DNA of 64,000 bases from Psococerastis gibbosa (Eukaryota; Arthropoda; Insecta; Psocodea; Psocidae): positions 10,791,261 through 10,855,260 of the forward strand of contig OZ020488.1 of assembly GCA_963971405.1 (NCBI GenBank), written 5' to 3'. The position numbers and the translations under genes were made by a program. Positions within the stretch are counted from its first letter, which is position 1. The number at the start of each line of letters is the position of its first letter. The notes beneath the pieces are model-generated. The model saw nothing but the letters and a program-made list of their open reading frames with translations. It was not told where the DNA came from and made no database searches. Positions 15,656 through 49,500 of the stretch are shown here, piece after piece.

Positions 15656-16365
15656 AATAATTTATCAGAAATACATATAAATTTATTTATTTATTTATTT
15701 ATTTAAAGTAGAGCCTCGGGTTCGAATCCGGTTTCGTCAATTTTTGCATATATTCCCTTCTAATGAGAAACAACTTAACAAATCAATGACAATTTCAACT
15801 AAACAACAATGCGAATGGACTAGCAAGGCATTAGCCCGTTTTACACGGTCAAATCTCTGATTAAACACAAGATGGGAAACTGGTGTTTGGCCAAATATTT
15901 ACTTGAAACCATCGAGATTGGGCACGGTGTTTGTTTGTTCCTTTTATCGTGTAAAACAGAGCATTTAATGTACGCATTGTAGTTAATGGTAAGGCAGAAG
16001 GGTGATGGCACACAGTCATGGGTAGGTCCGACAAGACCAGCACAGCATGTCGGAGTCAGAGCCAGCCAGGTTCAACATGTCAGCGACGACTTGAGCCATT
16101 CCGCAAGCCCCATTATCACTGAGCCATTCTGTAGTGGGTCCTTCGCTTCAAAAATATCTGTAACAATTATAAGAAGCTATGAGTGTGTGAATTCAACTAC
16201 AATAAGCAAGAGTCATGGCATTTTAAGAAATTTGGCCGCTTCAACCCCGCCATACCGCTACATGCTTCATGAAGCTGCTTTTTTTTATTCCGTTGAGAAC
16301 ATTAAACTTCCGGGGGTCGGGTTTAACATTATTCATTGCGCAGCCTTCCCTTGGATACCTTCTTA
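15656..16365. other. intergenic, no coding sequence recognised
   Basis: A (TTTA)n microsatellite at about 15682-15705 with a box B-like GGTTCGAATCC just after it, probably a SINE end. A plus-strand open frame at 15986-16366 resembles nothing known and runs into the MITE that follows. Confidence 0.45.
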
Positions 16366-16897: not shown

Positions 16898-17239
16898 CTA
16901 GTAGCTCATTGGTTGCCACAATTTGCCCAATAGGCAATTAAGTCTTGACTTTAGGTGAATTTCCCACAACTTACTGAAAGCAACGCTAAGGTGAAGTATA
17001 CAGGACACAAAGTCACCAAACCGCAAGGTGCCATCCTTGCGCATATATCTCAAAATTAAAATGGAGATCACTTCGGTACTGAGCTGGAAGCCTACTTCTA
17101 GCAGGGCATCCTTGAGTCGCTCGGCCTTCAAAATGCCAGTCTTTTCCTTGGAGTGATTCTTGAAGGCTGCTTGCCAGTACTTCAAGCTGCACATTAAGTC
17201 TTTGAAGTCGTTAAATTTCAGTCGACCGCAGCCAGTGCA
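16898..17239 (-). CDS. calpain exon 12 (last): EF-hands 2-5 and stop
   Basis: CGRLKFNDFKDLMCSLKYW, ILKAERLKDALLEVGF and GTLRFGDFVSCILHL follow the calpain penta-EF-hand pattern. Read without further splicing, the frame ends at TAG (16898-16900), 30 residues after LHL, the normal length for the last EF-hand. A GTAAGT at 16974 offers an alternative donor, but no convincing terminal exon lies to the left. Loop ligands are poor: the second EF loop has K and T where D is usual, and the third has S and R. Confidence 0.8.
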   Translation of the reverse strand, partial: CTGCGRLKFNDFKDLMCSLKYWQAAFKNHSKEKTGILKAERLKDALLEVGFQLSTEVISILILRYMRKDGTLRFGDFVSCILHLSVAFSKLWEIHLKSRLNCLLGKLWQPMSY

Positions 17240-23200: not shown

Positions 23201-26200
23201 CACATTATAATAACACACTCGCGCTTTCTATCAGCTACGAGTAAGTACCCACACGCGGTAACCACAGGCCCCATAGGCGATGATGATGCTCACATCAAAC
23301 CAGATTAAGTTGGCCTAGGTTCACTGCTCGCAATCATTCAAATTATGAAATGATTTAACTGGTCTACGCACAAGTGCATAACGTATATATAAGAAAGTGA
23401 GATTACGCGGAGGTGTTGCCAATCGACTATAGAATTAGTTAGGCTGTGATAACTTCGTTATGATTTGATTAATTTAATTGGTTTAATTAATTACAGTAGT
23501 CAGTACTAGTATACGGTAGAAGTACTAGGAACTGGACAACAGTGGTCCATTTCCTGGATAAGAGCGGTCAAAAGTGGAAGGTAGTGGTTGTTCAGTGCGC
23601 TCCTGACAGCAGTTTGCCATCCAACTGAGATAAAGGTAAAACCAAACAAATGAAGATGTCTGTACATCCCCCAAGCCAAAAAAGTGGATACGCATATTTT
23701 CGAGAAGATATTGAGCAATTATGATGTCAAGAGATAATCAGAGGGGGAAAAGCCTCATAACTAAATTTAAGTGTAAAAATCAAATATCTCATGGACCATA
23801 GCGATGCAAAAATGGAAAATTGTTTAGGTACGGTACCTGAGCTAAGAAAAGTGTTATTTGAAAACCCTTTCTTAAAGGAAAAAGTGCTTGAAGAACAAAT
23901 GCAGAAGTAATACTCAGCATTACCATCGGCTTCAATGGCAAGGTGGTAGCGTGCTTGTACTTATGCGAGTCTCCACATGCCATGCGATCGGAGACGTGTC
24001 GTAACTCAACACGGTTACTAACATTCAGGGGCGACTGAAGAGGTCAATCGGATAAATTAATTAAATTGTTTGTATGCGATTAACATTTTTTAACAACAAA
24101 AGAAAGCGGTGCATTCGCTACAACACAGAAAAATGTTGTCAATCGACACAGCTACAGTATACAGCTTAAAAAATATTTTTTAACTAGTACAACAATACTA
24201 CCTGACTAAGATAGGATGACATTTGGAACACCGAGTTAATTCTATTTTTTATAGGGGTTCCAAATGTTGAATGGGTTAGAAGCCAATGAGTACAAGTGAT
24301 ATTGTTTACTTTTAGAGATAAGTACACCATGTAGGCATGAGATTGTCATGGTGCCCATGACAATCTCCGAGAGATAATCTATGTAAGCAGACAAACGGTG
24401 TATTACACATAGTTGCTGAGCTAAATCAGGGATTAAAAATTGTGTCCAGCGTCAAACCGATACGGACCATCAAACTTGAAATACCCGTTTTCTCGAAATG
24501 AGACTGACAGCAGCACAGCACTTGCAGTACCCGACCACGATGGGATGGGAGTTGCCACTTGGAACACTTACAAAAATCAAATAAACTCGGTGTTCCGCTT
24601 ATGCAAGTTTCCGAATAAACAAAGTGTTCTAAGTGCCATCATATCGTGGTATATTGGCTTCTAACCCATTCATGTCATCCTAGGGTAGTACATACATACC
24701 TGTATGTACATTGCGGCCTCAACAATTAGCACAAGTAGGCAACATGAGAATTTGAGAAAGTATATAGCCTATATACAGATAATACGATAATAAACCAGAC
24801 GGGTTCAAATAATTCTAGGAAGCCAAATAAACAATGGAATCGATGAAGGGTGCCGACACCCACTGCAGTACACAGCTGTAGCCTACACTCGAACCAACAC
24901 CGCAATTATCGAGACAAAGAAAACTGTGGACAGTAATAAGTGGCCGAGCGGGTTTAAGGCCATCATTAACTCAACGCAGCTAATAAAGCAACTTTCATCA
25001 TAATAAGCGGACTTGTCCGATTGCACGTTTCGTGCAACCTAATCTAACCACCGTCAACTAATAACTATAGCAGAAGATGGGAAACAATTGTATTCCGTTA
25101 ATATGTTAAAGGTATTAGTGGTACAACACCAGTTCCATCTGCTCAAACCAAGAACCTTATCGAGAAGATGCTAGGAGATCGATCGAACGACAATCCGACC
25201 TGTCGTAATCTATGGGTGTGAGACATGGATTATGACTTGGAGGAGCGAGGAGCTGCTTGAAAGGTGGGAGCGCAAGATACTCCGAAAGGTGTATGGGCCA
25301 GTGCAGGGAGAGAGGGAGGGACAGAGAGTGGCGTATCCGAAGAAATGACGAGTTCTACGCGATATACCGAGATCCTACGATAGTAGCCGAAATCAAGAGA
25401 GCCTGCATCAGGTGGCCAGGGCACGTGGAGCGAATGCCAGAAAATAGGGCTACAAGAGCAGCCTTACACAAGGTGTCCCAAGGGAGAAGACGAGCGGCCA
25501 CGGATGCGATAGCTGGACGACGTCGAGGTGGATCTGGCGCCCATTGGCGTCAATGACTAGCGAAGTAGAGCGCAGGACCGTGTAGACTGGTGCGATGTGG
25601 CAGAACAGGCCAAGGCCCTTCCCGGTGCCTTTTGCATCCTTATGCCGTTGACTCTTCTTTGAGACAAAAGGACAAAAGAGTGCCGTAGTAGTAGTTGCTT
25701 ATTTAGTGGTGGCAAGAATTCGCCCCGCCACATAGTCTCGAGAGTACAAGCCTTCCTCGTACACCCAGTTCGAGCGGAAACAGACATGGCTAGAGAAATT
25801 AGTGCCAGAATGGAACTTAACTCCAGTGATTAATCTATCCCTACCATTATTTGAACAGATTTCAGGACTTACCCTATCGATTGCGTAGAGCCTATAATTG
25901 GTTCCAATTTGTATTCCATTGGCTAACTTTTCTGGTGTAGGATTTCGCACCTGCAAAAAGAAATACATACTAGGTATAATTAGGCTTAAAGACGGATACG
26001 ACTCAGCAACTCATAGCCCTCACTAATTTTTAGTTACCGTGCTTCAAACCCTCCGAAAATACGCTTCATCTTGAGGTTCATATCAGCTGCGTTTTTGTTT
26101 GTTACACCAACATCACCAGTTGCTTAATTTTGAACAATATAACAGAGAAATGAAATGAAATCATCATAATAAGCTACCGAAATTTTATAAGCCTGCAGAA

Positions 26201-28536
26201 GAAACACTTAGTTTGGAGACGAGACTTATTTGCCACAGAAATACATATCATCAACAGATTAGACTTACCTGCTGTTGGTTTTGCGTCTGAACGGTGCATG
26301 TGATGAGGGAGGTCATCTCCAGCAGTTTGGTAAGCATTCTGCCGCATGCTGTGGGGTCCAATCTGATGTTGATGCTCTCAGTGATGCCCCCCGTCAGATC
26401 AGCCAACCCGTCCAGCAGCGTTCCGTACTTGAGGGCCTCGTATGACCCGTGGAGCCTGGAACAAGGGCAACAAATAACAATGAGCAAAATGACTAAAAAA
26501 ATATTATGTATTCCCCATCTCTATATATAAAAATGAATTCCTAATTCCCTTGTTCACGCCATCACGCGTGAACGGCTGGACCGATTTCACTATTTTTTGT
26601 TCTTGCGTTTGTTATTGTCAGGAGAAGGTTCTTATGACAGAAAAAATTGAAAAAAATGCGCGGAAAATTAGAAAATTCTGGAAATTGAAGTTGTGTCATG
26701 CGGGGCCCCAATGGGGCGAGCTGCGTAATGCCCGCCGCAGGCTTGTAGTTTATAAATGCACTATTATGGAGAGTAGTGGTACAGGTAAACTTTCACCTAA
26801 AAGGTTGTTGGTTCGAATCTCACACTTACTACATTTTTTGGCAATGCAAAGCAGGGATGTAAAATTGAGTGTAACCCTCCGCTAGGATGGCTTATTAATT
26901 GAACATAAAGTCAATATTTATTTATTTATTTACTATCAACGAGCGCAGCTAGTTTCTTCAACAATCAGATCACTTAAGTATGCAACTAAAATAACCAACA
27001 TTCGTGAATTCTGACTACGCAATCGAAGAGAAGATCCACCGCACCAGTTTCTTCATGAAGATGAAAGATGATGGCCAAACACCGAAATTGTCATCATTAC
27101 ACAACAATAATTACTGCTAATAATAATTTGCCTATTATTATTCAGTGTCATCACTCGCCTATTAAAGCATCATTATAATCGCATCAGAGCACGAATAGCC
27201 CGAAAATTTTCTATAAGTACCAAAGTTAGAAAAAAAAGGCGTTAACCCATTGAGGTTATCTATTTTATTAGTAGTATTATATAGTATTTGGTACAATATG
27301 TGGGGTTCGGTCAAAGACCCCCCCGCCTAACTCCGTGAAGTTAGGGCATGGGCACCCTCTTGTCCGTGGGAGACGAAAAGCTCCCTAAAGGCGGACGAAC
27401 TGGATCCTGGCAACAAGTGACGGTCAACGGCATAGGATGCGGAAGGCAAGGGGAAACCACCGCATTATAGGCCCAAGTGGCATCCCAAGACAATATGCGG
27501 GACTGTGATGAGAGGGGGCGGTTCTGCCACTCAGTCCTCCTCAGAGTGTTATGGTTAGAAAAACCCATTGAGGTTATCAATTTTATTTGTAGTGTAGTGT
27601 TATAAGGTACAATATGGTGGATTGTGATCAGAGGGGAAGGTACTGTCACTCAATTCTCCCCAGGGTGACATGGTTAGAAAAATAGGCGCTGCGGCACGAC
27701 AACCCATTGAGGTTACCTATCTATTTTATTTGTAGTGTTGTTTTTTTTTTAAATTAATTCACACAATGTAAAAAAGGGCGGGGAATTCAAACTACATTAC
27801 TGTACACACGGACGATTTTCCCAGTCGCGACTTTACGGCGTCTTTTCCATTGTAGCCATCCCGCGAAAACCAATCGATTTAATTGAACATTTGCACCTGT
27901 CCCCTTGGATCCAATCCTAGCTACGCCCATGGCTATGACGCCGGAATAATATTACATCGCTAAATTGGATTTCTTTTGTGTAGAACTGCAAAGTGTCGGC
28001 TATACCTGCAGCCATAGAAAAATGACGTCAAACCAACTACAACGTTTTGATGGGCTTGCCGCGTTATTGGTTAGCTACAAGCATTTTTCTTCATGAAAGA
28101 GGTCCATAGACGGCCATTCTACCGGCGAATTTACTTCATTTGTGATTTTGTCATTGACGTTTGTTTTGTTTTAAGGAGACTATTATGTAGATACTTAACT
28201 TATCTATTATAAATTAAGTTATAATATGGTAGCATACATCATTAATAAGTATAATATAATATATAATAATATAATAGATAAGTATAACCCAACCTACTCG
28301 GTCCAACGAGCCTCCGTCCTACGAGCACCCTCCTCCCTCTCCGATGCTCTAGGAAACACAATAACAGCCACAAATAATATCATTCAATTCCTAAGAGCCA
28401 CCGGTCTCTTCTTCAACATTTAACCATCCCCCCCCCCCTCCCCACTACTTACACAACAGAACGGATAACTCTCTACCACTAAATAATCGGCAAACATTCC
28501 CAATTTCCTAGCGCAAATTCCAAACAGGGACCCGGG

Positions 28537-28572
<36 letters not shown>

Positions 28573-31500
28573 TAATAAGTCTTTACCATATTATAACTTA
28601 ATTCATAATAGATAAGTTAAGTATCTACATAATAGTCTCCTTAAAACAAAACAAACGTCAATGACAAAATCACAAATGAAGTAAATTCGTCGGTGGAATG
28701 GCCGCCATAGCAAGAAAATTTAAATGTATATAAGAAGCAAGCGTGCATGTACAATGGTTTCTCATGCCGGCATTCGCCTGTTACCGACAGTGACTGGCAC
28801 AATTATTCTGCATTCCTCGCCCTCTTTATGAAGGCTAATAGACTACGAGTACCAAATTTGAAGTACGTACCTAACTAGTACCTACGGTAACGTGATTGGC
28901 CATTCACTGGGGTCAATCCACTATGATACACGTAGTCATAATAACCCTTTATAACAGCCAATTGGTCATCCCGGGACACTCAGGACTCGTTTTTTTGAAC
29001 AAAATCGAATTTCACATGATACTTTAGAGCTATAAAAAATACAAATAAATAAATCAATAATAATTCAAAAGAACCGGTCCGAGTTTAATCGAACATGCTT
29101 TCCAATTTACCAATTAGTAGGGAGAGAAAATTATTAATTTCATGGTAAATAATTTTGTTATGGTTAAATTTCGGATATCACGGGGGGGGGGGGGGGGGGG
29201 TGTCCACCTGACGTCACTCGAAGTGACGTAAATTCTAGATAGGACAGACCAACACATTACCACACAGCAATAATGGCAGGGCCCGCAATGCATTTCAGCG
29301 TGAATTTGCTTTCATTTTTTCAAAAAAACATTTTTTTGCGCAAAACCAAATAGTTTTTTGGGAAAGCAAACTCAATTTAACACCTAAAACACGCCTGAAG
29401 TTAGGAATCATCGATAGAAAGGTTCCGCAGAAAAAATATTTTTTAGTCATTTTTCATAAAAATTGAGTTATTTTTATTTTTTTTTACTCTCCGAAGCAAA
29501 TCTCAAGGGGCAAGCGACCCACCGCTTTTTATTAAAATTAATAAGGGCTACAATATATGTGAATTTAAAAGAACAGACAGACAGACTGATAGACATGTCG
29601 TAAAAACCACTTTTTTGGGTTCCTGGGATCTTAAAACGTGTAAATCCGTTGAAATCTCGGAATCGAAAATTTTGACCATCACAAAGCTTTCCTTATACTA
29701 CGTATAAATTGGAAAGCAATAAATATAAATAATTCTTTATATTCTAATGAAATGTGGCGATGCTATGACCAGATTGTCCACTTTCGATTTATTGTAAGAA
29801 AAGAGACTTTTCTGGCGATGTAACGCCCGATATTTCAATTTTGGCGATGTACTGGCCAGAGAGGTAATGCCCGGCGAGGAAATGTGCCAGTTGATATGAG
29901 TTGCCTATTTTTTCGCATATGAGTTTTTGATTGGATTGGACTGGATTCTTGTTTATCGATAGAAATAACACTTTGGCGTCAAACAATGCTTTTCACCCAT
30001 GTTAAATGCTCCTCTCTAGACTTATTTGTAAGAAAATCCATCTCCATGTTTTCCTTAGTCCAAAACGTGACAGCTCCACCTCAGCCAATCAGCGTCCGCC
30101 ATTGTGATCATGCGCCAAAAATAACAAATATGACTCCCCCATCCCTCTCAATTGCAAGTTAATGGGGATAAAGAATTGAGAGAAAATCGGTTTTCTAGCT
30201 CCCCTGAAAAGGCCAAACGGCAGCTCTTATGTGGCCGTCACTGTACTGTACATAGTTCGTCATTGCAGTGGCGGATTAAACAAAAAGTTTTGGAGGGGCC
30301 GAACCTATTTGAAAAGCAAGTGCTTCTTTCCGAAATTACCGTTACCACTAAATGTGTTATAGAATTCAACATCTGCATTCATAAAGTATCAAATAAACAA
30401 AAATATTACGCAACAAAACGGTTCTCCCGGCGAACACCACCCAACACATCCCTATCTATCATAGCTTTGGGTGCTTTGGGGGGGGGGGGCTATCCCCTTT
30501 AATCCGCCACTGCGTCATTCGCACTATATCTGGTGGTCTTGTCGTCGCTATCCACAACCTGTGACCCCTCTAGTAGCCTGCAGCACAGCCCTATCCCTGT
30601 CGAGACTTTTGACTTTTCAAGCGATGGTGGGCTTCGCCAATCTAAAAAACCTTGCAGATTATCAACAAAATTGGCTCGTCCGATACCTAATTGAAGGGTT
30701 CATTCGTGAGGTTGACCGCAGAGAAAATAATATAATAGTAGGTACGGTGGTGGGATTCCGATCGAAATCCGTTTAATTCTCGACTGACCTACCTCTGATG
30801 AAGGATTCCTTAGATAAAGTAACCGGATAGAGTGGTCGGGGAGCATTAGTGCGTGAAGTTGCCCATGTATCTGTCGCACATCGTGAGTTATAAGCCTAAT
30901 TGACATATCTGGGCTGTAAATCATCGACATCTCAATAAATATACATTTATATCTTTGAGCCGCTAATATTATTTCAACAGAGAAATGAAAAGAGGAATGA
31001 GAGAGGAAAGTTGAGGAACGAACGAGCGTTGCACGGGCTAAACATTCAGAAGGTTGTTGGTTCGAGTCCTACACTTCCTACATTTTCCGGCCATGCTTCG
31101 GAGGGCATGCCAGTTGAGTGTAAAGAGGGCTTTATAGCCTTAACTCCGCTAGGTTGTCTTAGTAATAGAACAAAAAAGTCCTTATTTATTTATTTAGAAG
31201 TTTTAAAACTTTAGAGTAAAGCCGTTGTTACGGGCACTTAGCGGTCTATACACCACCATTAGAAAACACACCCCATCCAGGGGTGGCCAAAATATAACGA
31301 ACCCGTGGCCGATCTAGTTCTCAATCCACTGCAAAGATAAGCTAACTTAAAATAACCTCCGTTCCCATCTAAGAAGATATTGCCACAGTCATTATACATA
31401 AGGATAAGACCTCATATCACTCATGCACGAGAAAAGTGACACATTCCTAAATATTGACTTTTGAGATAATTCAAATTTTAGTTCTGACCATTTTTTAGTT

Positions 31501-34500
31501 TTTACTTGTAGTACTAACGAGGCACTTAATTCTTTTGAGATGTGACAGTTTACTTGAAAGAAAAGTGTAATTACCACGTCAATGTCTGGAATGAATAATG
31601 TTTAAACTGTACTCTGTAGGGTGTATCCCGCACGCCTCTATGAAGGCCCTAATTGTATTTTTGTCTAATTATTGTATTTGTTGGAAATATAGAATTGTTA
31701 CTATTATTATTAATAAATTCCGAATTATGTCAGTATTGCCAAACCCGAAGTAGTCAAACTTGACAATGGATCACTGACAAAACGCAATCTTATGGAAACA
31801 AATTAAACTAGATATGTGACACTACATTCATAAAATTCGCTATATTTTCCTCGACATTTTTGTATAAATAACTCAATTTTGCAATTTTTTGAAATGTGTC
31901 ACTTTTCTCGTATGTTAAACATCAATAACTCTATGCCGATTTTGGTAGTAGGGTTGTTTATAGTTTATAAACAATAATTGTCACTCTGGCCGATAAACAA
32001 AATTAGGCTAGCGCGTTTATCTTAGCAAGAGCTACATGAATTCTTGCTGTTTCATAATTTTGTAAACAGCGGAGCATTTTTCTTTAGATTTCGCGACTAA
32101 TGAGAAAACAATATTTTGGCCACCCCTGGCTTCTAAAGATACTTGCTATCAAGCAAGGCTTTAGTGGAGTAAAGGAAGATTTGAAGTTGTGCCTAAAATA
32201 CATGTGCCAGTCATAGGATTATCACCATGAAGAGGAATGGCATTTTATCCTCCCCGTAAGGTAATATGACTACTGTATCACACTCCAACTCAGTGGCGGA
32301 TCCAGAAATTTCTCAAGGGGGGGGGGGCGCGAACCTTTTCTACTTGCGTATGTCGCGCAACGGCGTTTCTTTTATCTTCTGTCTTTATCGTCTAACACAA
32401 GGCGATCGTGTGTAATGGCAGTGCCATTGCAATATATTATCCTTAATTTAATCAAACAGATGAGACCTTAGAACAGTAAAATGAGCGCAATACTGAGGCT
32501 AGGTTTTTGCCCAGTTTTCTCTACAATCTCTACGCAACAATCCCCCAATTCCTAATTAAAATATTTAAATTTTGAAAGGCACAATGATTGAGCAACCACG
32601 AAATGCAAAATAGCCAAATAAGACTATCCGTACGTGCTACCCCTGAGGCCAACCAACTATATAGGCTATTGAAACCACGAGTATGACAAAACCTTATATA
32701 CTACGTGAGGTCTTTAATACCGTAATCAGGCATATAGGCCTCGGGTCGCATGTTAACTACGCTTAGGGCTATCCAGTCATTTCGTAATGACTCACGCCAA
32801 AAGTCAGGTATCTGGCATAAGACCTGGTCATAATTATGGGCTAACTCATCAAGAATGCGTCATATAGACAAACAGTGGCCAATATACATGGGTATTACAA
32901 AATTTTTAAGGCTCAATAAAATTGGTACCGATCCAATGCCTATAAATTTAATTGTGGGTCGCCCCATAAATTAATTGCTTTCCTGTTTATGCTAGTACGC
33001 TAGTATATGGAATGCTTGGGGATGGTACAAATTTTCAGTTGCGAGATTTCAATGGATTTACATGTTTTAATGTGCCACGACAGCAAAAAAATATCTTAGT
33101 TTTAAGAAATATTTGTCTGCCAGGCTTGCTCTTCGATTTGTGGTAAAAGTACTCGATGGAATTTGATGAAATTCGGTATGTAGATTGGAACAATTATTAT
33201 AGAGGGAGACGGGCGTATTCTCTATAATTTTTTTGGTAACTTCATTTTATAGTGTTATTTTATCCCCAGAAGGTACTAAAAAAATGTCATATTTTTTCAT
33301 TCACAAATTATCAAATGCACAAATGCGCTAGTCATTATTAATGTAAACCAAAAGCACTAAATCACTTTCAGGGGGCCAAAAAATCTAAAATAGAAAATAG
33401 TCCCTTCCCCACTACTCGTTTTATGGACAAAGTCCGATTTCTATTAAATATAGTTGATCCATAAATAAGAGTAGGTGAAATTGAAGAAATGCTCCAATAC
33501 AATTTGAAACACAGCATGTGGCGTCAACATAGTTTGGTCACAGGTTTTGAAGGTGTGGATCAAGCCTAACCTTGAATTTTTTTCTCACCTTCAAAAATTG
33601 TGGCCAAAGGGTGTCCGCGCCGGCTACATTCAATGCATCAAAATCAATATCAATCAATCAATCAATATTTCATGAGAAGTTCTACTTTGTACAAAAAGCG
33701 AGTGGTGGGAGTAATTTGCTCGGAGAGCTGCCGCCCTATACACTATGGCCATGGCGACTTGGGATTATTAACGTAACACCGGGGTTTATTCAATTGTTTT
33801 AAGCAAATGTGTGCAAAATGCGCGGGAAATTCAATTAAAAAAATTAATCCTCAGCTATAATTTGGGAGAATTTTCAATATTTTCTCTCTTAGGTGTAGAC
33901 ACGTTAATTACAATTCTTATTATATTTCAAAATTTCTATCTGTACATTTTAATGTTTATAATCAGTATTTCCTTCAATTAATAAAAAAAATGCAACCATT
34001 CTAATAATTTATTAATTTGAATTTCCCGCGCATATTTTAACACTTGACACCTTACTAATGCGGCATTAAAAAAGAAACCCCGGTGTTACGACTTACGTTA
34101 ATCGCAAATCGCCTAATATAGCTGCAGTTTCAGGTATTCCAAACGTGGACGGACTCTCTCAATATCGCCATACATACTTTCTTCCAGAAAAACACTTTGG
34201 AATAGTGTAAATCGTGCAGAGGGCCCCTTAGATTAACCATTAGCATGAGCCATTATAGGAAGTGGCAGTGGCGTAACAAATTTTTAGGGGGCCCGCACAA
34301 TTTATGTCATCAGTTATGCTAGGTCTAAACTTTCATTTTATTTTCTGAGATTGTGTTATTTTTTTTAAATGTTTATATATTTTTTGTCAAAAACTCCCCA
34401 AAATTTACGTATTTTTTCCCTTTCTGCAAGGGGCCCTCTTTGGCAGGGGGCCCTTATACCTTGTATAACTTGCAACTCTTCTGTTACGCCACTGATTATA

Positions 34501-37500
34501 GCTTAACAAAAATGGACCGGTCAGTTTTTAAGCCAACCTACAGCTCGGGGCAAGCATATCATTGATTTTCGTGAGAGCGTGTAGGAATGCATAAATAGCC
34601 ATGTTTTGTGTTGAGTGCAATACAATTTACATTTAGGTGCGCCCTCCCTATTTTCGTATTCCATAGGCAGCCCATCCTGACTAGGCATTGTGTGTGTACC
34701 TACTTCCGGCAGCGCGGGGTGGTTAGGTAAGCTTCCTGTCGCCACGTGCCGCATTCACACGATAGTGAAAATATTCCCACATAGTCCGCCATTGATGGCT
34801 GTTTCCCATGCATTAGATATTCACGATTTCAGTAATTGAGTGGCTTCAGATGCCTCTCCCAGCACAACAATGAATGATCGACTCGGCTTGCCTCTTTAGG
34901 AACTGTTTCAATAAGGACGTCTTGAGAGCACTCTGTCTTTTACGCAACAGCCATACTGTAATTTACGTTACACAAACAACGGCGCTTCACAGAATTGTAA
35001 GGAAATACCGAAACTAACATCTAAAGTTCTAAACCACTCAAAGACTGGACAAAGACGTACAACTGCGAGAGAACAATCAACCATAGGCATTTTGATTGAT
35101 ATGACTTTAATGAAACCTGACAAGATTCCTTTAGTACTGACGAATATTTCATATTTTATTATCTATTATATCCCCAAGGCGGCTATTCCACCGACCTCGT
35201 TTTTCATAATGCAAGTGCATGACGTGGTAGCAGACATCATTAATAAGTCTCTGCCATATTTAAAGGAGATTATAATGTAGATACTTAACTTATCTTCTCC
35301 ACACCCCTTAACCTTCTCCCCCCCCCCCTCTTCTTCTCTTGCTTCTTCTCTATTTAATTTTAAGCATCTATATATTAATACAATATGTTTGTTTTTAAGG
35401 TTAGCATGAAAAGAAGACTTTATAGTCTTATTGTTCGCCTTTTGTTTTGTTTTTATTCAATAAAGTCGTTTTCAATTCAATTCAATAAATTATGCTATAA
35501 GCCTATAATATGGTAGAGACTTATTAATGATAAAAATCTGCTGCCACGTCATGCACTTGCAATTATGAAAAACGAGGTTGGTGGCATAGCCGCCTTAGGC
35601 GCCCATTCCATTGACCGGCTAGGGCTATTTCCAAAAACAGTGACGTGGTAGCAGACATTCAAGACTTAGGTGGCGTTTCCACCGACCTCGCATTGCAGAA
35701 TTGACGGAAATGTTTATTTTCCTCTATGCTATAGTTAAAATTGATCAATGATCATACAGTAAAATCACAAACAAACAAACTAAAATTAAAAAATGGCGTC
35801 ATGGTATATGTTAAGTACAAACATTTTAATAGATTTCTATAAAAAGAAAAATTCTAATTTCTGTCAATGTCATTTGCATTCTGCAATGCGAGATCGGTGG
35901 AAACGCAACCTAAGTCTTGAATGTCTGCTACCACGTCACTGTTTTTGGAAATAGCCCTAGCCGGTCAATGGAATGGGCGCCTTACGGAGAGGTTGTTCCT
36001 TATAAGCGACACGGGAGAAAACTGATCAATATCAGTGACACTGACACACGGGTCCCAGGACCCGCTTAAGAATTCGATATAGGGCATGTAGGGTAAATAA
36101 ATAATTAAATAAATGCTGAATTTTTGTTCTACTACTAAGGCAACCTAGCGGAGTTAGTGCTATAAAGACCTCTCTTTCACTCCACAAGGAAGGCCCGGGA
36201 CTGCCTGCTTTACATGCCCTCCGAAGCATCGCCAGAAAATGTAGCCAGAGTGGGACTCCAACCAACAACCTTTCGGGTGAAAGTCAGAGGTACGGAATCC
36301 GAAGACTTGGACTTTCATCACCCGAAAGGTTCGAATCCCATACTTGCTACATTTTCGGGCCATGCTTCGGAGGGCATGCAAAGCAATCGGTCCCGGGGCT
36401 TCCTAATTGAGTGTAAGAGAGGGATTTACAGCCCTAACTCCGCCAGGTTGGCTTAGTAATGGAACAAAAAGTCAATATTTACTTATATAGGATAGATGGG
36501 AAATTCGATCCGGTCAAAAATAGTTTCTGGAATTTCTGGTGTCACCTGCCTGTCTTGTTCGACCAGGCTCGTATCTGTACTTGGTTAATTCATACTTTCG
36601 CCTGTTTCATTGCGTCAATGGTAAGCTTGTCCATTATCGCTTGTAGCCGGTATAGGTTGACATTGAGAACGTATACCAGTTTGCCAATGGCCAAAAATTC
36701 ATTCGGAAGCAATACAAATAATGTCCGAAATCCATGGGGTTGTTGGCATTGGACAAGGGGCTTATGGAACACTATTAGTAGGCCTGGGTCCATAAAAAGT
36801 CCTTAAAAAAAATTACAAAAATTCTTCGACCTGCAGCCTGATTGAGGCGATTATAATACAGGTATTTATTTAATCCCCTGGTAATAAAAATGTAAACAAG
36901 ATAATTTTATAATGGAAAGTGCTATTCAAAATTTGTTTGTTTACAGTTATAATCCTATGGTATTTATTTAACCCCGGTATTTATTTAATCCCCTGGTAAT
37001 AAAAATGTAAACAAGATAATTTTATAATGGAAAGTGCTATTCAAAATTTGTTTGTTTACAGTTATAATCCTATGGTATTTATTTAACCCCGGTATTATAA
37101 TCGCCTCGATCAGGCTGCTGCTAGTGAAAAAGACGTGGCAGGTCCCAAAAGTATAAAAAAAAAACGTGTCTCATCTCTCCCATATAAAGTTCTAGGTTCG
37201 CCCAGTTGTTGCATGAATGGGCAGACTGGGCTTGGGCTGGATGGATTCCAGCATGGGTATCGACGTGGCATTTGTTTGGTAGATGTTCTAGAATTCTAAT
37301 GACACTGCTTTCCATTTGTGGGTTGTTGTCCGGTCAGACCGGTGGTTGCCCTTTGTATATCTGTTTCTCCTTAGCCGGCTCATTGTTATGTACCCACTAG
37401 GCTATCGCCTACAATATCTTGCGACTTGCAGTTTACAACGAATGGCATGCATACGTAAACTTAGAGGTTTATAAAGTAGAGATGGGACATTTGCACCCAC

Positions 37501-40500
37501 CAAGGATATTTCTTCAATTTCTGATGCTATCCCTCACTATCACTCAACGAAAATTAAAAGACTGTAATTTCTTATGAATTTTAAGTTTTTACGCATAAAG
37601 GACATGTTGAGTAGTGGTACAGACTCCGATTTTCACCCGAAAAGTTGAAGGTTCGAGTCCATCACTTGCTACATGCTTCAGAGGGCATGTAAAGCAGGTG
37701 GTCCCGCATCTTCCTAGTTTAGTGTAAAAGACTTCATAAGAGGCTGACTCCACTAGGTTGGCTTAGTAATAGAACAAAAAGTCAATATATATTTATAAGA
37801 ATTCCTCCCCCGGTTTTCCCATAAATTTAAATCTTGTCGTATGTTGATTCTCCCCATTGCAAAACTCTTGACCAAACAGAGGAAAATTAAATAATTCATC
37901 TCGAGACTCACGAAAACACTAGAACCTGTACAATAATTGGAAATGAGAGTAGCCGAAACATTGTGGGAAAGCAGCACGCACATGCTCGCGACAAGGTGTC
38001 GACGACATTGGGAGCAGTTTGTCGACAAAACGACAGGTCATTAATTTGGCGACACCCGTCGAAATCCGAAAGCAAGACGCGGCCGGTTGTGTCTTGATTA
38101 ATTAACATTTTGCGCGGGACTTTCACCCGGTTTTGACGAGGTCTGGCGGCCATGTTTATTCCCGCTCTACATGAGAGAGCAAGTCCTCTCTGCTTGATGG
38201 ACTTGTCTGTGTTTACGACACTTGTTACTTCCAGTTGAACATGCAGATGCTGTGAAATTACGCGTCGACATTGATCAAGTTACTCAAGTGTTTTCTACCA
38301 ACTGTACGAAACATTTCCGCATCTATACTGTTAAGGGTGACTCCCACCCTCGTCGGTAAAGACATGGAATGCGGAATCTGAAGGTAGACGGTATGCATTG
38401 GAAGGGGAAAAAAATGGCCGCGGCACGACAAGTTAATCGATAGAGGGTCTAGGCTTGAGGTCTCAGGCCCCTATCTCTTCCCAGAAGCCGAGTTGCTGCT
38501 GACGGTTAAGAAACGGAAATTAACATACTTCGGCCATGTGATAAGGAACGAAAAGTATCGCCTACTGGACGAAATGAGCCAAGAGAAGATAAATGGACTG
38601 AGGGCTCCCGGCAGAACAACAACATCCAGGTTGAAAACCCTGAGTCAGTAGTTTGATAAAAGCACGACTTCCCTTTTCAGAGCAGCAGTCTTCAAGGTAC
38701 AAATTGCCATGATGATCGCCAACCTTCGATAGAAGAGGCAAAAACAATAGCTGCGAGAACCATGTCGACATATAATGTTTAATGAGTACAGCCGACGCCT
38801 AGGCTATAAAACAGCCTTCTGACACTTGGGACAATTTACCAAGGCAATGCTTCTTAGGGCTACTACGAGTACTTCGGAAATCCTATAGACCAGCGTTTCT
38901 CAACCTTTTTTACCTCACGCCTCACGGCACACTAACTGGCAATCCAATTTACTTACGGCACACTATGTTATTATCATTCCATTACTTTCAGTTAGGCAAA
39001 ACTAGAAAATAGTAATACATGGTATGTTTACTAGGTTAAACAAATAAAAAACTCCTTGTTAGTGGTAAAACAAATATTAACAAACAAGAAAATGTTTTTC
39101 AAATGTACAGTATATGTACATAAATTTTTTAGTAAAAATGAAATCTTCGTCTTTTTTGCGGCACACCTACAGACCCTTTGCGGCACACCGGTTGAGAAAC
39201 GCTGCTATAGACACTCGTTTCCGATGGATTGTTCATTAACATGGTAACAGCACACAGATGGCTCGTCTTTCCGACGACTACTATATACAGAATGTATGTA
39301 TAGGGAAATACTCGAATAAACCATAAGGTATCACCATAGCTTTTGCCAATAGTTTCTACACTGTTGAGGGACACAACTGATCCTTTGGTAAATTCTTAGT
39401 ACCCCCCGCACGTGACCCGATGGCAACCTAAATACCTGAGAGCGGACCTCTAGCGGGGACGGGTGACCCGGCAGCCTTCAATCAGCCGCAGTTACCTATG
39501 CATTATGCTAACGGAACTACAAAATCATCTCTCTTTACACATCTTCAAGGTCCGGCATGTGGGCCTCTTTTGTGCTTATCTTTATAATGATGTAGCCTTG
39601 CCACCGGCTGCAACTAACATCCGGGATGGAAGAAGAGTATGTAATATTTATTTTTGTTTTTGTATAGCTTTTCGTGAGCTTTAATTGTGTATACTCACTG
39701 ATCATTCTCGTCGAACCCAGTGTAAAGTGTAGTGTATGGGCGAAGGTCAATTAAGAAAAATGTTGGTTTCCGGACAGGAGTCAAAGGTTCCGAATCACAA
39801 ACGCCAGAATTTTTGTGGAATCTTATATTCAAGGCCGTAGCTATAGTATGGGATAAGCTAGTCTATAGTCCGAGGCTACAATAGTAGTTTATACCGAGCT
39901 TAAGAAAGCAAAACTGAATTCTGGTAAATACAATAAATACAACACTAGGTCATCGTCAGTCTATAGGCATGGAAAAAATTGTCTGCATCCTGACAATGGC
40001 CTAGTGCCGGTCACTTTAAAAATATTTTTAGTAATATTTGACAATGTTATTTTATTCTTTTACTAAGACGAAGTATTACAAAGTGACTGGAAAATATTAA
40101 TGAAATACTATTTCTTCTTCTTCTTCCCCCTTAATGCCGCGTGCGCAAAGTTGGGGGGGGGGGGGTCGCCCCGAACCCATTCCTGAACTCGGTCATAGTT
40201 TTCCCTCTTGCTCGAAACACTAAATCAATGGGGAAAAATCCGACAACTTTTTTGTTGGACGAACAGGGTCCGATATCTACTGCCGAGCAACCACTCCCTC
40301 GGTCCATTAGGCTAATCTTATTTCCATTGAAATTTTAGAAAACGCAAAATTTCGCCGGTATTGAGCTCTAAAGGCATGGCAGCACATTTAAGTTGACATA
40401 ACAATAGCACTTCATTTCTCTTGAAAAGACCATACCTGATTGGACTTCATGGTTGAGTTTTACACAGTAGTCCATGTTTTATTCACCTGGAATATGCTTA

Positions 40501-43500
40501 GACGAGTGCTCCCTATTCAGAACAACGCAGTAAGCGGCAAGGTATTGTGTTATAGATGTTGTGAAGAAAAGCGAAACGATACACATAGCATACAGTGATG
40601 GGCAAGTTTAAGAACCCTAAGGAAGGTTCATAAAAAGGCATTCAGGATATTATTATTAAAAGGCGGCTATTCCACCGACGTCGTTTTTCAATGTGCATGT
40701 GCATGACGTGGTAGCAGACATCATTAATAAGTCTGCCATATTTTAAGGAGACTATAATGTAGATACTTAACTTATCTATTATAAATTAAGTTATAATATG
40801 GTAGAGACTTATTAATGATGTCTGCTACCACGTCATGCACATGCACATTAAAAAACGACGTCGGTGGAATAGCCGCCTATGTAACCAGTTACCAGAGGGA
40901 CACAATCTGAAACCTAGGGTTACAAAAAGGAGGCGAATCGGTGTACAATATACCAAAGCAGTATGGGCTACCAACACCAGGTGAATCTGATTGATTTGGC
41001 ATTAAGGATTTGGTTGTCTTTGCTAACAAGGTTAAGCTGCTGTTTCTCAACAGTTGATTAATTGAGAATGGCCATAGTATGAATGATTGGGATACACTGA
41101 TGTGATCCCAATTGTTATGCTGTTCAAAAGATTCCAAGACCTACAGTATGTCTGCTCAACTCTCTAAATAACAATAATAATGGGTTACCAACCCGGATCG
41201 GTTTCAACCTAAGGTAAAAAAAAAAAAAAAAAAAAATAGTGCCGGAGTCGTGTAAACGTGTACTACGTACTCGTATTTAAATTGAAACCAATAGAAGTAC
41301 TCGTTGAGAAGCCGAGCCGAGAAGGGAGCTGCACTAATTATTGAAGTACGTGTAGCTCAGTGTTGTAAACCAGAACTTAGGCAACCAGATCGGAGCAGTA
41401 AACTGATTTTAGAAAGGAAGATTTGCGATCATTAATGCAGACAATTGCTCAATTCACGCTTGCCCTTTGTTCTAATGCGTTTCATTGACACACTAAGAAT
41501 CATCAACTGCCCTGCAAAGTTAAATAAAAATTGTCTAGCTATTAGCAAATAGAATCACGTCATACCGCGGAGACTAATGTGCAATGTTTCACCAGCCAGG
41601 TCTGAATGCTGAAGCTTCGAGGACTGATCGTGACAAATTTTTATAGCTCACTTAAGAATCAACAAAATTTTCACGGGTTATTTTGCTTCAACTCTTCTAA
41701 GAGGACATGGAACGTAGATATTGGTCACACTGGGATCACGCAAAAATCAGTCAGTTTCTATGTGTTTATATAATTTTCTATTAAAGCTATAGTATAAAGA
41801 AGTTGTAGAGAACAATTCCATACACAATATCCAAGGGTATTTTTTTTTCTGGTGCTGCCATTCCTTCATGAACTTTACAATAAGTGAAATTTCAGTTTTG
41901 CGTTAAGTTCATTAAATAATTACAACACCAAAATTTAAAAAGACCCTATGATATTGCGCATGAAGTAGTTATCTACTCCCATTTACCAAATCTTTATAAC
42001 TTACGAGGTTAATTAAATAAGAAATAATAGCCGATTAATCTACGGGTGACTACGTTGAGTACGTTCCACATCTTTTTAAGGGCAAACCGGAGTCACCGAT
42101 ATTCCATTTCTGTGCAAACTTTAATTTCTCATGAAATATGGAACACAGAACAATGAAAAACTGTTGAATGGAAAGAAGAATTTTTTTCTCCTAATTTTGA
42201 TGTATAGTATGTTGCAATCATCAATACCGATAGGCTATAGTTAGTGAACTTGATACGCAAAAAATAACGGTCACTCAGGAGTTCAAGCCGAAGAAGTTCA
42301 TCAACTGTGTCGAATTGGGGTTGGTTAAGGCCACATACTATGCATCAAAATTAGGAGAAAAAATTCTTCTTGCCATTCAACATTTTTTCATTGTTCAGAG
42401 TTCCATATTTCATGAGAAATCTATGTTTGAGCGGAAAGTGGAATATTGGCGACTCCGGTTTGCCCTTATAGTCCACGCAAAATGAGAAAGTATGGACATG
42501 GAATGTTTTGATCCTGCGCAACACTGTAAAAATATTCTTTGCACCATTTTGTGTTACCTTGTTGCATTGGATGCAAGGCATAACAAAAATTGTGCAAAAA
42601 TATTTTTACAGTGTTGCACAGGATCAAAACATTCCATGTCCATACTTTTCTCATTTTGCGTGGACTATAACAGTCAACACAATCTAGCGTATTATATATA
42701 AGTGATGTTAAAAGGACCAAAATGAAACTGAAGAATGAAGATCCATCATAAGGCTGGAAGACTAAGGACGGATACAAAGGGGGGGGGGGGGCGCAGGGAA
42801 GTAGCCCCCCCCCCAATTTTTTTTTTAGAAAGTCTGTTGTAAGTCAATGTGTTACGTTATAATTTATTATGAATCACTGTAGGGATATAAATTAAAAGTG
42901 ACTGATAACCCATGTGTTTAATACCCCTAAGAAGAGTATGGTTGCATCACGCGGAACACAACTTCTTCGTATGTGTCAATTTGGGCATAATAAACAAAAA
43001 TCCGTTATAAAAATAAATAATTTGTTGAAACTTACTTTGCATAAGCTTTCTCCAGCAGTCCAGCCCAGTACTGATCTGAATTCGTGGACTGGAGGAAGGC
43101 CAATCTGCCGTTGACGGTGGGCAGACGGTCATCGACAAGCACCTCCACCCACTCGCCGCACCACCACAGCCGGAACCTGAAAACACCGGCATAGTGCTCC
43201 GAGGAGAAGCTCTGGTCGGCTGGTACTACCCGGTAGAAGAGGCCTTTGCTCAGGTATAAGACACCAAGACATGACACCAACCACCGGTCACCTGAAATAC
43301 AAAAAAAGTAAAATTAGGAAAAACAGGTCTTCAGAGGACGTACATTTCAAGTGCAACTCATGCTAACATTTTGAAGATTCCGAGATAGCGCCTTTGCCGT
43401 CCGCCGATACATTGATAAATCTAACTATAAAGAACTAGAACCCCTTCTTATTCTTTACATGCCTCTTCTAACGAAGATTGGCGCTTATAATGGCAATTTG

Positions 43501-46500
43501 GAACTTAAAGACTGCTGCACTGAAAAAGGAAGTCGTGCTCTTGCCAAACCACCGCCACAGGTTTTTCAACCACGGTTTTCTTCTTCCACCAAGAGCTCTC
43601 AGCCCTATCTTCCCTTGGATAGCATGCAGAATGCGATATTTTTGGTTCCTTACTATCCATCCCTTCACACCATATAGAACGAACTCAATAACTCACATAA
43701 TAACTTAAATAAAAGTCGAGGACGGGTGAGTGATATACCCCCGGTATACTGTATGCATTTAATTAAGGCTGCAACTCCGTCTACACTCTTCATTTTATAC
43801 TCGACCACCCGTAGCGTTCTCTCGTTCGGGGGGTCCACGGGCCAACTAATGAGAAACACTGGAATAATGTACTTACAGCAATTACCGAAGGTGTAGGTGT
43901 GCAACGTATACAGTACTCAACTGTGTTTAACTTATATGAATCATAAAAACGTATACCGCCACCCTAAAGTCAGAAGGATGTAACCAACATTTTTGTCGAG
44001 ATTGAGTTATGATCAGATTTAGTGACCTTGTCGTAGGATAGAAAATCTTTGAATGTGCCGAAAATAAGACGGAATTTTCAATTTGGAGGGCGGATCTGAC
44101 TGTTTGTACTCTGTTATGAGCAATAGCATCTTTAATCGCAATTCTGTCGACATTATGGTTCTGATGGTACGCCCTTCTGACTTTAGGATGACGATATATC
44201 CTTTTTCTAACATTGATAATAATTTTCATGGTTGCACCAAGTCTCGGTGCATTAGTATAAAAAATGGCGCCCCGGTCCGAGTTGTTGTGCAAGGTCCCTT
44301 TCACTTGTGCTGGAAACAGAGCAAGCGGTCGGCCAGCACTTGACAACTGCATTGTCCATGGTCAAGGGTCATGGTCAAGTATTTAAAAGGTCCACAGCCT
44401 CATGCTCAGCACAACTCGGTTCGGTTGCAATATGATAAATATATGGTTCATTAGCAACAATAAGGGCGAATCCAGGATTTTAATCAAGGGGCGCAAACAG
44501 GGGGTTCTAGATACGATTAAGGTACTAGTGACTTGGTGATGGTGGTGGTCCAGCACTTCTAAGGTTCACAGCCTCATGCTAAGTATAACTCGGTTTGGTT
44601 GCATATGGTAAATATGTAGTATATATAGGGGCGAATCTAGGATTTTAATCAAGGGGCGCAAACAGGGGGTTCTAGATACGACTAAGCAACTAGTGACTTG
44701 GTGGTGGTGGTCCAGTACTTCTAAAGTTCACAGCCTCATGCTAAGTATAACTCGATTTGGTTGCATATGATAAATATGTGGTTCATTAGCAACAAAAGGG
44801 GCGAATCTAGGATTTTAATCAAGGGGCGCAAACAGGGGGTTCTAGATAAGATTAAGCTACTAGTGACTTGGTGGTGGTGGTCCAGTACTTCTAAGGTTCA
44901 CAGTCTCATGCTAAGTATAACTCGGTTTGGTTGCATATGATAAATATGTGGTTCATTAGCAACAATAAGGGGCGAATCCAGGATTTTAATCAAGGGGCGC
45001 AAACAGGGGTTCTAGATACAATTAAGCTACTAGTGACTTGGTGGTGGTGGTCCAGTACTTCTAAGGTCCACAACCTCATGCTGAGTATAACTCAGTTTGG
45101 TTGCATATGATAAATATATGGTTCATTAGCAACAATAAGGGGCGAATCCAAGATTTTAATCAAGGGGCACAAACAGGGGGTTCTAGATACAATTAAGCTA
45201 CTAGTGACTTGGTGGTGGTGGTCCAGTACTTCTAAGGTTCACAGTCTCATGCTAAGTATAACTCGCTTTGGTTGCATATGATAAATATGTGGTTCATTAG
45301 CAACAATAAGGGGCGAATCTAGAATTTTAATCAAGGGGCGCAAACAGGGGGTTCTAGATACGATTAAGCTACTAGTGACTTGGTGGTGGTCCAGTACTTC
45401 TAAGGTCCACAGCCTCATGCTAAGTATAACTCAGTTTGGTTGCATATGATAAATATGTGGTTCATTAGCAACAATAAGGGGCGAATCTAGAATTTTAATC
45501 AAGGGGCGCAAACAGGGGGTTCTAGATACGATTAAGCTACTAGTGACTTGGTAGTGGTCCAGTACTTCTAAGGTCCACAGCCTCATGCTAAGTATAACTC
45601 AGTTTGGTTGCATATGATAAATATGTGGTTCATTAGCAACAATAAGGGGCGAATCTAGGATTTTAATCAAGGGGCGCAAACAGGGGGTTCTAGATACGAT
45701 TAAGCTACTAGTGACTTTGTGGTGGTCCTGTATTTCTAAGGTCCACAGCCTCATGCGCTAAGTCTAACTCGATTGCTATATCAAAAGAACCGGTCCGAGT
45801 TTACTCGAATATACTTTCCTATTTATCAATTGGTAGATAGATAATATGAGTAATTCCACAGTAAACAATTTTCCTATGGTTAAATTTCGGATCCCTCGAC
45901 GACATACCCTATCCCATAGTACTGAATTGATCGATGAGCGAATACGAATGATGTCAATAAGAGCATAGAAGTAGAGAATTTAGAGGGCACTATACTTGTC
46001 GGGCTTGCGGTCCAACGCTTAAGACGATGTCTGTGATAGGCGTAGATCGTGGGTTCGAATCCCGCCAGTTTTTTTCTATATCCTTTAGCTTCGGTTATAA
46101 CTATGAGGTTACCTCTTCAGCCAAAGGTAATTTAATGTCAGTGTTCTATATCCTCTAATTTCAGGTTAATTTTTTTTTTTTAATGATCGCGAATATGATT
46201 GCCAACCAACATGTCGAATTTCATAGGCAGACCGACAGATATTTCTAAAACATACTTTTATTTATGGCCCTTGGCAGGACCGAGGCCATAGGCAGCCATT
46301 TTTAAAAATATCGATCTACTTCAGGAACTGGACAGGGATGTTCCAGCAACAGCGGTGGTGCGGTTCCTTGACAAGATCGGCCAAACATGGCAGTATAATT
46401 ATTATTTAGAGTGTTGCGCTGACATACTGTAGGTCGGGGGACCCTTTGAACAGCATAATTATTATCTCAATCATTCATATTATGACCATTGCCAATAAAT

Positions 46501-49500
46501 AACTGTAAAAGAGCAGCTTAACCTTGTTGGCAAAGACAACCATGTCCTTCAGCAACAAGTCAATCATATCGACCAGGTTGATGAAGGCAGCCTCAAAACA
46601 GTCCAACCACGTGTTCCGCGGTTTTGTCGGACTCATTGCAGTGCCGAAACGTGGCAGTAACGTAGCCAATCTGTTTTAGATAGTACCTGGGCAACCTCGT
46701 TGTCCAGTGCGCTCATATAACAGCAGTTTTGCCTTACCAAATCGGACTATTAAGGTATATCCAATAGTGTAGAAATGGCTGCATATCCCAAAAGTCAAAA
46801 AAAGGTCATAGGAACTCATAACATTGAAATCTAATAATTTGACTAGCACAAAGCTTTGCATTATGCCAACGTATAAATATGAAAGCAACAATAAAAACGC
46901 CATCTTGAATAAAAACTTGACGCATAAAATCAACAAGGTGATATGATGCGTTTACATTACATGCACCACTGCATCGCAATGCCATGCAGTAAATCACCAC
47001 TAACAACATCGTTATTTAAATCTAAATACCACCACTTTTTCACGCAATTACGTTTTTAATACTGCAATATTATACAAACATTATGTTCTCCTCGACTGGG
47101 TGTAACGCGCAGGAATTCGCTCTAATTACAGAGAGCTCCCAGCTAGTCTTTATATAATTTCCAAACCACTTTCTACACTGTTCAATAATGTAATCGCTAA
47201 TTCGATCACCTTATAATTTGATTGAAATTTCACTAAAAAAAAACAAGCCGGTATTTAATAACTGTGGTTTGACCCGGGCAGAATTCGATGGTGGAACTAG
47301 TCAGTCGTGCGTTTGGTATGGCGTCATCTTTACGCAGTCGCTTGAGTCCTGACTCCTCTGAGTATAAATGATTTGCCGATGATGACATTCAGTTCCAACT
47401 TTTGTAACATTTGTTCCGGTTTATTGCCTTAAACGACTTAACATCAAAATAAAGGAAACTTTCAAATTCACACTAATATGTTGTTTCCAACGCCTGCTTT
47501 CAGCATTTCTGCTTTAAGCCTGGCGGGGGGAGTGAGTTTGTTTGTTAACTTGAGGCACCCTAAGGACTGACTCTTTCACCTCGGGGAAAGGGGAGTTGAC
47601 TGACTGATTATAGTGGGTTCCGAACCACTTCAGGAATATGGTAAAGTCACACGATTAAATCGACGGTGACCAGGACTCGACACGCACGTAGACTGACTGG
47701 TATAATCTCAGCGTGTTATCATGTCCCACCATGTTCCCCTGCCAACGCTGTGCACACTACCAAGTTTGCCGCAGTTTAAAACATGCTCTGCTCTCATGGA
47801 TTCAACATGGTAAGGTCGTTTGCAATTCACACTGATATCACCATAAATCTTTGGATATTCATTTACACTAATATCCAAAGATTTATGGTTTATTTATAAA
47901 AAATAAGAAAAGCACCGATATTTGAAACCTGACCAAATACGCGACATTTTAATGATGGGAAGTATGCTGCTGACTATTGCACCATTTCTCCATTTTTTTC
48001 TTTCACCAAGTCCGCGTAGAAAATCCAGTAAGGTATACACTGTAAGTACCAAACGTAGTATGTAGCTACTCACCCATTTTGCCGGAGCTGATGTCAAACT
48101 GGACAGGGGAATCATTTACGAATATTGGCCGATTACACAGTTCCTGCAACAAAAAATAATTTACATAAAACCCATCGGGTACAGATTGCCCAACTTGAAG
48201 TTCAATGGTTTTCTGTACTTCGCGCATACCCTGAATACTATTTTTAAAGCGTCCCATAGAAGATTTCGATGAACGATGATCTTCTTTTATTCTTCTTAAC
48301 CGCCATTTTTTTTTTTATTGCAACAAATCTTTCCATCTTCTCTTCCATTTTTCTCTGTCCTGGGCCGTTGTTTTGAGTTCCAAGTAGCTTCCGACCATCT
48401 CATATCTTGTTTAAGGTTTTCAACATACACCTCTCCCCCCCCCTCCCCCCCCCCCCCCGTCGGCCCTTGCCATTGCAGTTCTCAATGGTGCCTTCCTATA
48501 TGGTATTAAGGACTAATACTAGTATGTATAGCAATAGGTTTCAACATTTTTGTTGTTGTGGTCTTTATAGGTTGTTGTTGGGGCTGTGTTCCAAATGGCC
48601 CCATTTGCATCTACTGTAGAAATAGTCAGTTTTAATGTTGGTATGCTACACTGTGTTTTCTTTATAAGTAAAGGTAAATACCCCTTATTTGATTTCTAGG
48701 TGTGAACCTGAGTAATTAAATAGCGAGTTGCAGAAGCTAAGAATTACTAAGAGTCGGACTCATTTCGGACAAATCCTTAAGACGTTTTCCACTATATTCT
48801 GTTAGTTTCAGGTTACCCATTGTAATCACAGACATTTCGAAGCTCATAATAATAGGCAGGCTATAAACGGAGTTGACGTGAAGAAATGCCCATAAAATAA
48901 TTTGAATCCCGTTAAAGTTGGCTGAGGACGGCGAGTCCATAAACTGCATTCCGCAGTTATCGTCTCCCGAGAAAGTGCACCTATACATATTTTATTAATA
49001 AATGCATGCTGGACAACACCTTTCAGGGCTAGATTCTTTGTTTTACCATCTGTACGCCATTTCTCCATGTCTTCTACCTCCTGTTCATTCAGATTCATAA
49101 GTTCCTCCATCCACCTATTCAGCATCTGACACCACATCGTCACAGACGATTACATCAAGTATAGAAACATAGTACTTTTTGTTGGTATATCTACAACAAC
49201 ATGCCAAAGTGAACATTCTGTAAATGCCTTTCAAGAACCTAGAAAAACGGTCGATGCCTGGACCCTGGTAAGAAGATGAGACTAACCTATAGCAACCCCC
49301 AGACGTTTGTGCGTGGGGGCCAACGACCCCAAAGTGGAAAACTAACTTTTTAAGGAACCTGAAACATAACCACAACCGCGACTTGGACTTTTATCACTAA
49401 TGTTTAAACTGACCTTAAAGAGAAGGCATCTGTGCGCTTCCGATGGCTCAAACACTATCTACTTATTTTAAGGTTAACTACAGACCTAACCTGGCGGCCT

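Follow-up and report, generated by a model that had tools for sequence, protein, structure and literature searches.

A calpain gene of Psococerastis gibbosa with an intact frame and replaced catalytic Cys and His, most likely an orthologue of Calpain-C

The question raised by a calpain gene of Psococerastis gibbosa is whether a protein with Arg and Thr in place of the catalytic Cys and His is still maintained, and to which branch of the calpains it belongs. The gene lies in a 64,000-nucleotide stretch of DNA, analysed at its full length and called here the window (C13:10791261-10855260 in a 409 Mb assembly of 68 contigs). It runs on the minus strand from position 62976 to 16072 of the window, and its 13 coding exons form a single open frame for 660 amino acids (1983 bases including the stop, the last base being 16072). 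A sequence-only reading of the same DNA had described a maintained pseudoprotease at 25873-48143 and implied 12 exons; this span holds exons 2-5, while the exon with the retained catalytic Asn (21830-21661) lies outside it, and the first and last exons are found at 62976-62839 and 16157-16072. We consider it quite probable that the gene is an intact orthologue of Calpain-C whose product would keep the calpain shape, would neither cut nor be under the usual calcium switch and would act as a binding module.

The catalytic positions, given here and below in calpain-1 numbering, are C115R, H272T, Q109S at the oxyanion hole and W298L, while Asn296 is kept. In place of the Cys-His-Asn triad and the oxyanion Gln of an active calpain peptidase, the window protein thus has Arg, Thr, Asn and Ser. 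Exon 2 (48074..48143, ELCNRPIFVNDSPVQFDISSGKMG), located by manual reading and spliced alignment, carries the Ser and an altered loop of the first calcium-binding site (CBS-1). The junction between exons 2 and 3 splits the GDRW motif (AAA ATG G/GT GAC CGG TGG on the minus strand), and exon 3 (43036..43291) supplies its Arg codon (CGG, 43284..43286), most of the PC1 domain and the change of Glu185 to Gln. Exon 5 (25873..25950), found by spliced alignment, encodes IQIGTNYRL with Thr for His272 (ACC, 25900..25902), and exon 6 (21661..21830) encodes LRNPLG, in which Asn296 is followed by Leu instead of Trp298, and the CBS-2 region, where Arg replaces Asp309 and is followed by an Asp. All four observations on these residues had been made in the sequence-only reading; they held, those on the Arg and Thr codons both by direct reading and by script. 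Sequencing error at the two codons was rejected, since CGG is two base changes away from TGC/TGT and ACC two away from CAC/CAT, and nearby family positions differ too. It was also suspected that the His region had been taken from a wrong exon, since the strongest match to PF00648 beyond PC1 is at 21648-21824; that exon holds RNPL, and exon 5 holds the His position. We infer that the window protein should not cut.

How far the loss is confined to the active site was assessed on invariant columns taken from calpains whose triad is known or apparent, namely the paralogue C3a from the same genome and human calpain-1, -2, -8 and -3, the last two covering the protease part only. The window protein kept 86 of 135 such columns in the N-terminal and protease parts (9/14, 45/64 and 32/57), 44 of the 68 ungapped columns among 73 in domain III, and 23 of 47 in the penta-EF part. 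Of the 20 columns no more than three residues away from Gln109, Cys115, His272 or Asn296, 10 were kept, versus 73 of 108 elsewhere with the CBS places excluded (one-sided p 0.105); at the CBS places themselves the count was 3 of 7. Four of the five key positions were lost versus 45 of 130 others (p 0.058), again no significant concentration. The catalytic residues are plainly gone, yet the loss is not significantly concentrated there, and divergence spans the whole protease part.

The Pfam scan of the window protein at E 0.001 gave the protease core PC1-PC2 (PF00648, E 6.2e-88, model positions 1-296 of 297) and domain III (PF01067, CBSW, E 2.1e-28, model positions 1-137 of 137); nothing else, including EF-hand and C2 families, was found at this threshold. 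Exon 3 alone matches PF00648 with E 4.5e-27. Searched with the 84 amino acids of this exon, the prokaryote and viral collections gave 94 and 8 pattern matches, respectively, and 0 were confirmed. Among solved structures, residues 3-657 of 660 align with the large subunits of calpain-1 and calpain-2 (7x79_A, 1kfu_L; E 6.5e-119 to 8.7e-118). For residues 492-656 there is a further match, to the penta-EF domain of calpain small subunit 1 (E 5.5e-23). Judged by these matches, the window protein is a full-length classical calpain with protease core, domain III and penta-EF region. The domain order is identical end to end to that of the calpain-1 and -2 large subunits, whereas the catalytic Cys and His of those subunits, along with several of their calcium ligands, are lost in the window protein.

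Exon 1 (62839..62976) was built by hand; it starts with the ATG at 62976, encodes the N-terminal helix region (MTDYERILRAC...WKRPK) and ends in the donor gtaagc. It lies outside the stretch (15001-49000) to which human calpain-2 was aligned with our own spliced aligner. The alignment reproduced exons 2-12, with exon 7 differing at its 3' end (20832 versus 20904), and recovered exon 13 in part (65 of 86 bases). Each of the 12 introns has GT at its 5' and AG at its 3' end. Since the aligner was limited to GT...AG introns, these signals add no independent support; the joins that keep the frame do. Spliced alignment also located exon 4 (26269..26455, HGSYEALKYG..., spanning the PC1/PC2 boundary) and exon 8 (20238..20351, domain III). 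Exon 7 (20904..21171, with 20832 as the alternative for its ambiguous 3' end) covers the end of PC2 and the first half of domain III with the AGGCRN motif and a match to PF01067, and exon 9 (19277..19395) gives the second match to this family in domain III.

The regions outside the active site had been described as conserved. This is true of their layout and length but less so of the calcium sites. In the protease core, E185Q and D309R change two of the six side-chain ligands in CBS-1 and CBS-2, and Asp106, Glu302, Asp331 and Glu333 are kept. At the backbone-ligand places of CBS-1, V99N and G101S were found, and R104Q is also changed; the backbone-ligand changes need not abolish calcium binding. 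In the penta-EF region, exon 10 (18384..18556) encodes the linker and EF1, where His replaces Asp, and exon 11 (17792..17850) encodes the helix preceding EF2. Exon 12 (16975..17239) encodes EF2-EF4 with altered loops: EF2 has Thr and Cys at inner ligands and Asp instead of Glu, and EF3 (SKEKTGILKAER) begins with Ser and ends with Arg. Exon 13 (16072..16157), of which the first 65 bases are also in the spliced alignment, encodes the EF5 region and the stop (...LAEWLKSSLTC*). The absence of an EF-hand match at E 0.001 is in keeping with these altered loops, while EF1-EF3 of the paralogue C3a look canonical. The calcium switch is thus predicted to be weakened and not to operate in the normal way. 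With ligands partly lost alongside the active site, the protein is predicted to respond to calcium less than its relatives do.

The search of the genome with PF00648 found 8 calpain loci with 27 exon matches, weak loci being possibly missed, and seven paralogue models were built with the aligner limited to GT...AG introns. C3a, C15, C14a and C14b have intact triads; we read C3a as CalpA/B-like, C14a as SOL-like and C14b as calpain-7-like. Four of the eight loci depart from Cys-His-Asn: the window gene, C13b, C3b and C19. The classical calpain-like C13b (C13:32879000-32901239, plus strand, 10 modelled exons) has GDTW, with Thr at the Cys position and Pro in place of the oxyanion Gln, and keeps His and Asn. 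C3b (C3:49424306-49445246, plus strand), a divergent calpain-like gene, has Phe at the Cys position, Arg at the His position and no clear Asn. Its model is doubtful near the Asn, where it has an exon of 28 bases, and towards the C terminus. C19 (C19:15095105-15099785, plus strand) keeps Cys and His and has Ser for the catalytic Asn (RSPW); for C19 and C15 too, the C-terminal part of the model is doubtful. It is conceivable, although we regard it as unlikely, that the window gene, C13b, C3b and possibly C19 form a triad-less set, the window gene and C3b coming from one dead ancestor, in view of an intron (calpain-1 position 335, phase 2) that no other model shares with them, and that these proteins act as calcium-insensitive partners or decoys of CalpA/B-type enzymes in place of a small subunit. 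Drosophila calpains are not known to have a small regulatory subunit.

Inactive calpains are known in arthropods. Drosophila Calpain-C is called an inactive protease in PMC3441222, and PMC4631099 reports that its His is replaced and its Asn changed to Asp; the latter source counts 337 non-peptidases, besides 637 fragments, among 3795 homologues. In PMC5650170, classical family C is defined by the inactive Drosophila calpain C. Its Daphnia and Branchiostoma members are also described there as devoid of critical residues, lophotrochozoan members (Crassostrea, Aplysia and Capitella) have an intact triad, and the bootstrap support of the family is low (36). The window protein shares with family C, as described there, the trait of an arthropod classical calpain with lost catalytic residues. 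Since family C and Calpain-C have been published, an inactive calpain is expected in an arthropod, and Calpain-C is the named case. It had been mentioned in the sequence-only reading as another inactive relative; the view of the gene as a pseudoprotease stands, with Cys, His and the oxyanion Gln gone from an intact gene, but Calpain-C is most likely its orthologue.

An alignment and a tree, both among the checks that had been proposed, were made with the seven paralogues and human calpain-1, -2, -3 and -8. In the protease part, the window protein is identical to human calpain-3 at 105 of 241 positions (44%), to calpain-8 at 101 of 247 (41%) and to C3a at 102 of 248. A sequence presumed to represent Drosophila Calpain-C was then added and is used as a lead, not as a test. 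This presumed Calpain-C is identical to the window protein at 344 of 653 positions end to end (53%), while the best other full-length sequence, C3a, reaches 238 of 632 (38%). Taking this sequence as given, 137 of 249 positions are identical in the protease part, 69 of 149 in domain III versus at most 61 of 150 among the rows with more than 100 columns, and 98 of 189 in the penta-EF part versus 52 of 174 for C3a. It also presumably shares with the window protein the Arg of GDRW, the NY that follows the His position and an almost identical EF3 string, with Val where the window protein has Thr at the His site; it agrees with print in the replaced His and the Asp for Asn. With this assumed sequence in the tree, the two pair at 100/100, with an end branch of 0.28 for the window gene (0.26 for C3a) and a stem of 1.04 for the pair. 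If the gene is an orthologue of Calpain-C, the dead state would be inherited.

Several points weigh against this assignment and the mechanism proposed with it. A tree of 12 rows (the window gene, seven paralogues and four human calpains), made without the presumed sequence, left the window gene unplaced, and the orthology is a lead from that sequence and from family traits. In section 10 of PMC4631099, Calpain-C is named for His and Asn and not among the sequences missing Cys, a mismatch with the presumed Arg; the Asp reported there for the fly protein also differs from the Asn kept in the window protein. As to calcium, four of six core side-chain ligands are kept and an Asp directly follows Arg309, so some calcium binding by the core may persist. 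The gene could instead represent a separate dead family of classical calpains that lost its triad independently of Calpain-C. The three other off-triad loci, which indicate that the loss probably happened more than once, agree with this, as does the phase 2 intron at calpain-1 position 335, which among the seven paralogue models only C3b shares with the window gene. Such an origin is nevertheless very unlikely if the presumed Calpain-C is a guide: it is nearer (53%) than any paralogue (at most 38% at full length and 41% in the protease part), and it would have GDRW, the NY behind the His site and nearly all of the EF3 string in common with the window protein. Orthology with Calpain-C is preferred as the most likely assignment.

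The integrity of the gene bears on whether its protein is still made use of. As had been claimed, the exons are open: all 661 codons are free of stops except the terminal one, while the other two frames hold 37 and 32. The GC content of third codon positions (GC3) is 0.604 versus 0.401 in the introns, and that of the first eight exons of C3a is 0.55; exons 5, 8 and 9 run contrary to the overall trend (0.35, 0.26 and 0.28). Six of the 12 intron positions are shared, with phase, with the triad-bearing C3a, so the gene is an old duplicate with introns and not a retrocopy. Open frame, GC3 and shared introns speak for a gene under selection, neither a retrocopy nor a decayed copy, and the intact frame lends good support to its description as a maintained pseudoprotease. 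The spread of the exons over about 47 kb, together with tandem repeats and a fragment of reverse transcriptase in the introns, might suggest an ordinary calpain that lost catalysis recently, in this lineage, and is becoming a pseudogene. Against the 13 of 13 open exons and the difference in GC3, this reading is more improbable still than a separate family. Changes affect several sites belonging to one machine (Gln, Cys, His, Trp, E185, D309 and EF1-EF3), with at least two base changes in each of the Cys and His codons, and with the presumed Calpain-C taken as a lead, the Arg is common to both proteins and the end branch is short. That the protein still cuts through a relocated nucleophile, such as the Cys five residues past the Arg (GDRWLVSC), has next to no probability, even if migrated residues are possible in some pseudoenzymes according to the abstract of PMC10211241, given that His272, Gln109 and Trp298 are replaced too and that a Cys at a distance of over one helical turn is unlikely to face the same cleft.

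As an inactive orthologue of Calpain-C, the window protein could bind the partners or substrates of calpains, or pair with active calpains via its penta-EF region. By such binding it might tether, compete or regulate. A scaffold and a partner or decoy of an active CalpA/B-type enzyme are equally compatible with the data, and either role is proposed here with lower confidence than the loss of cutting. In the sequence-only reading, a scaffold or regulatory role had been suggested and calpain-6 named as an inactive relative. Mammalian calpain-6 (CAPN6) is without the penta-EF domain and has a C2 domain, whereas the window protein has a penta-EF region and no C2 match in Pfam at 0.001, and so is not of the calpain-6 type. 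The two are alike in the replaced nucleophile (Lys in CAPN6) and, for CAPN6, a non-proteolytic role is reported: in PMC3731218, the inactive protein has a role in muscle and serves as a scaffold on microtubules. The window protein might act in a comparable manner; the catalytic losses of the two proteins are probably independent.

The finding is most likely a further case of the known inactive Calpain-C. What is freshest in it is that calcium ligands are partly lost and that a single genome has so many calpains without the triad. A search of the literature by titles and beginnings of abstracts found no report of the gene of this species, although one may exist elsewhere. Calpain-C was reportedly described by Spadoni in 2003. 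Presumably, as far as the sequence taken for it can be followed, Drosophila Calpain-C resembles the window protein in the Arg, the 53% identity and EF3, and differs from it in Val versus Thr at the His site. If Calpain-C does occur outside flies, its dead state is old and shared and not an oddity of flies. If the orthology holds, this state would predate the split from Drosophila.

Other features were noted in the assembly. In the mitochondrial contig (C68) the gene order is cox1-trnL(taa)-cox2, as in insects and crustaceans. Its COX1 is identical to a presumed insect fragment at 71 of 80 positions, a value that seems low for a fly, and at 5439-5695 trnM, trnC, trnI and trnQ stand ahead of nad2; the usual insect order is trnI-trnQ-trnM. 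In the window, an open frame on the minus strand at 3044-3670 matches Hamartin (TSC1; PF04388, E 7.7e-9) and is probably an exon of a neighbouring gene. Intron 5 of the calpain gene contains on the opposite strand (21891-22568, plus) a match to reverse transcriptase (PF00078, E 5.1e-14), probably a retroelement remnant. Tandem arrays were found in intron 2 (44372-45771, a 168-base unit repeated 8.3 times) and in intron 1 (56717-57595, a 113-base unit repeated 7.9 times).

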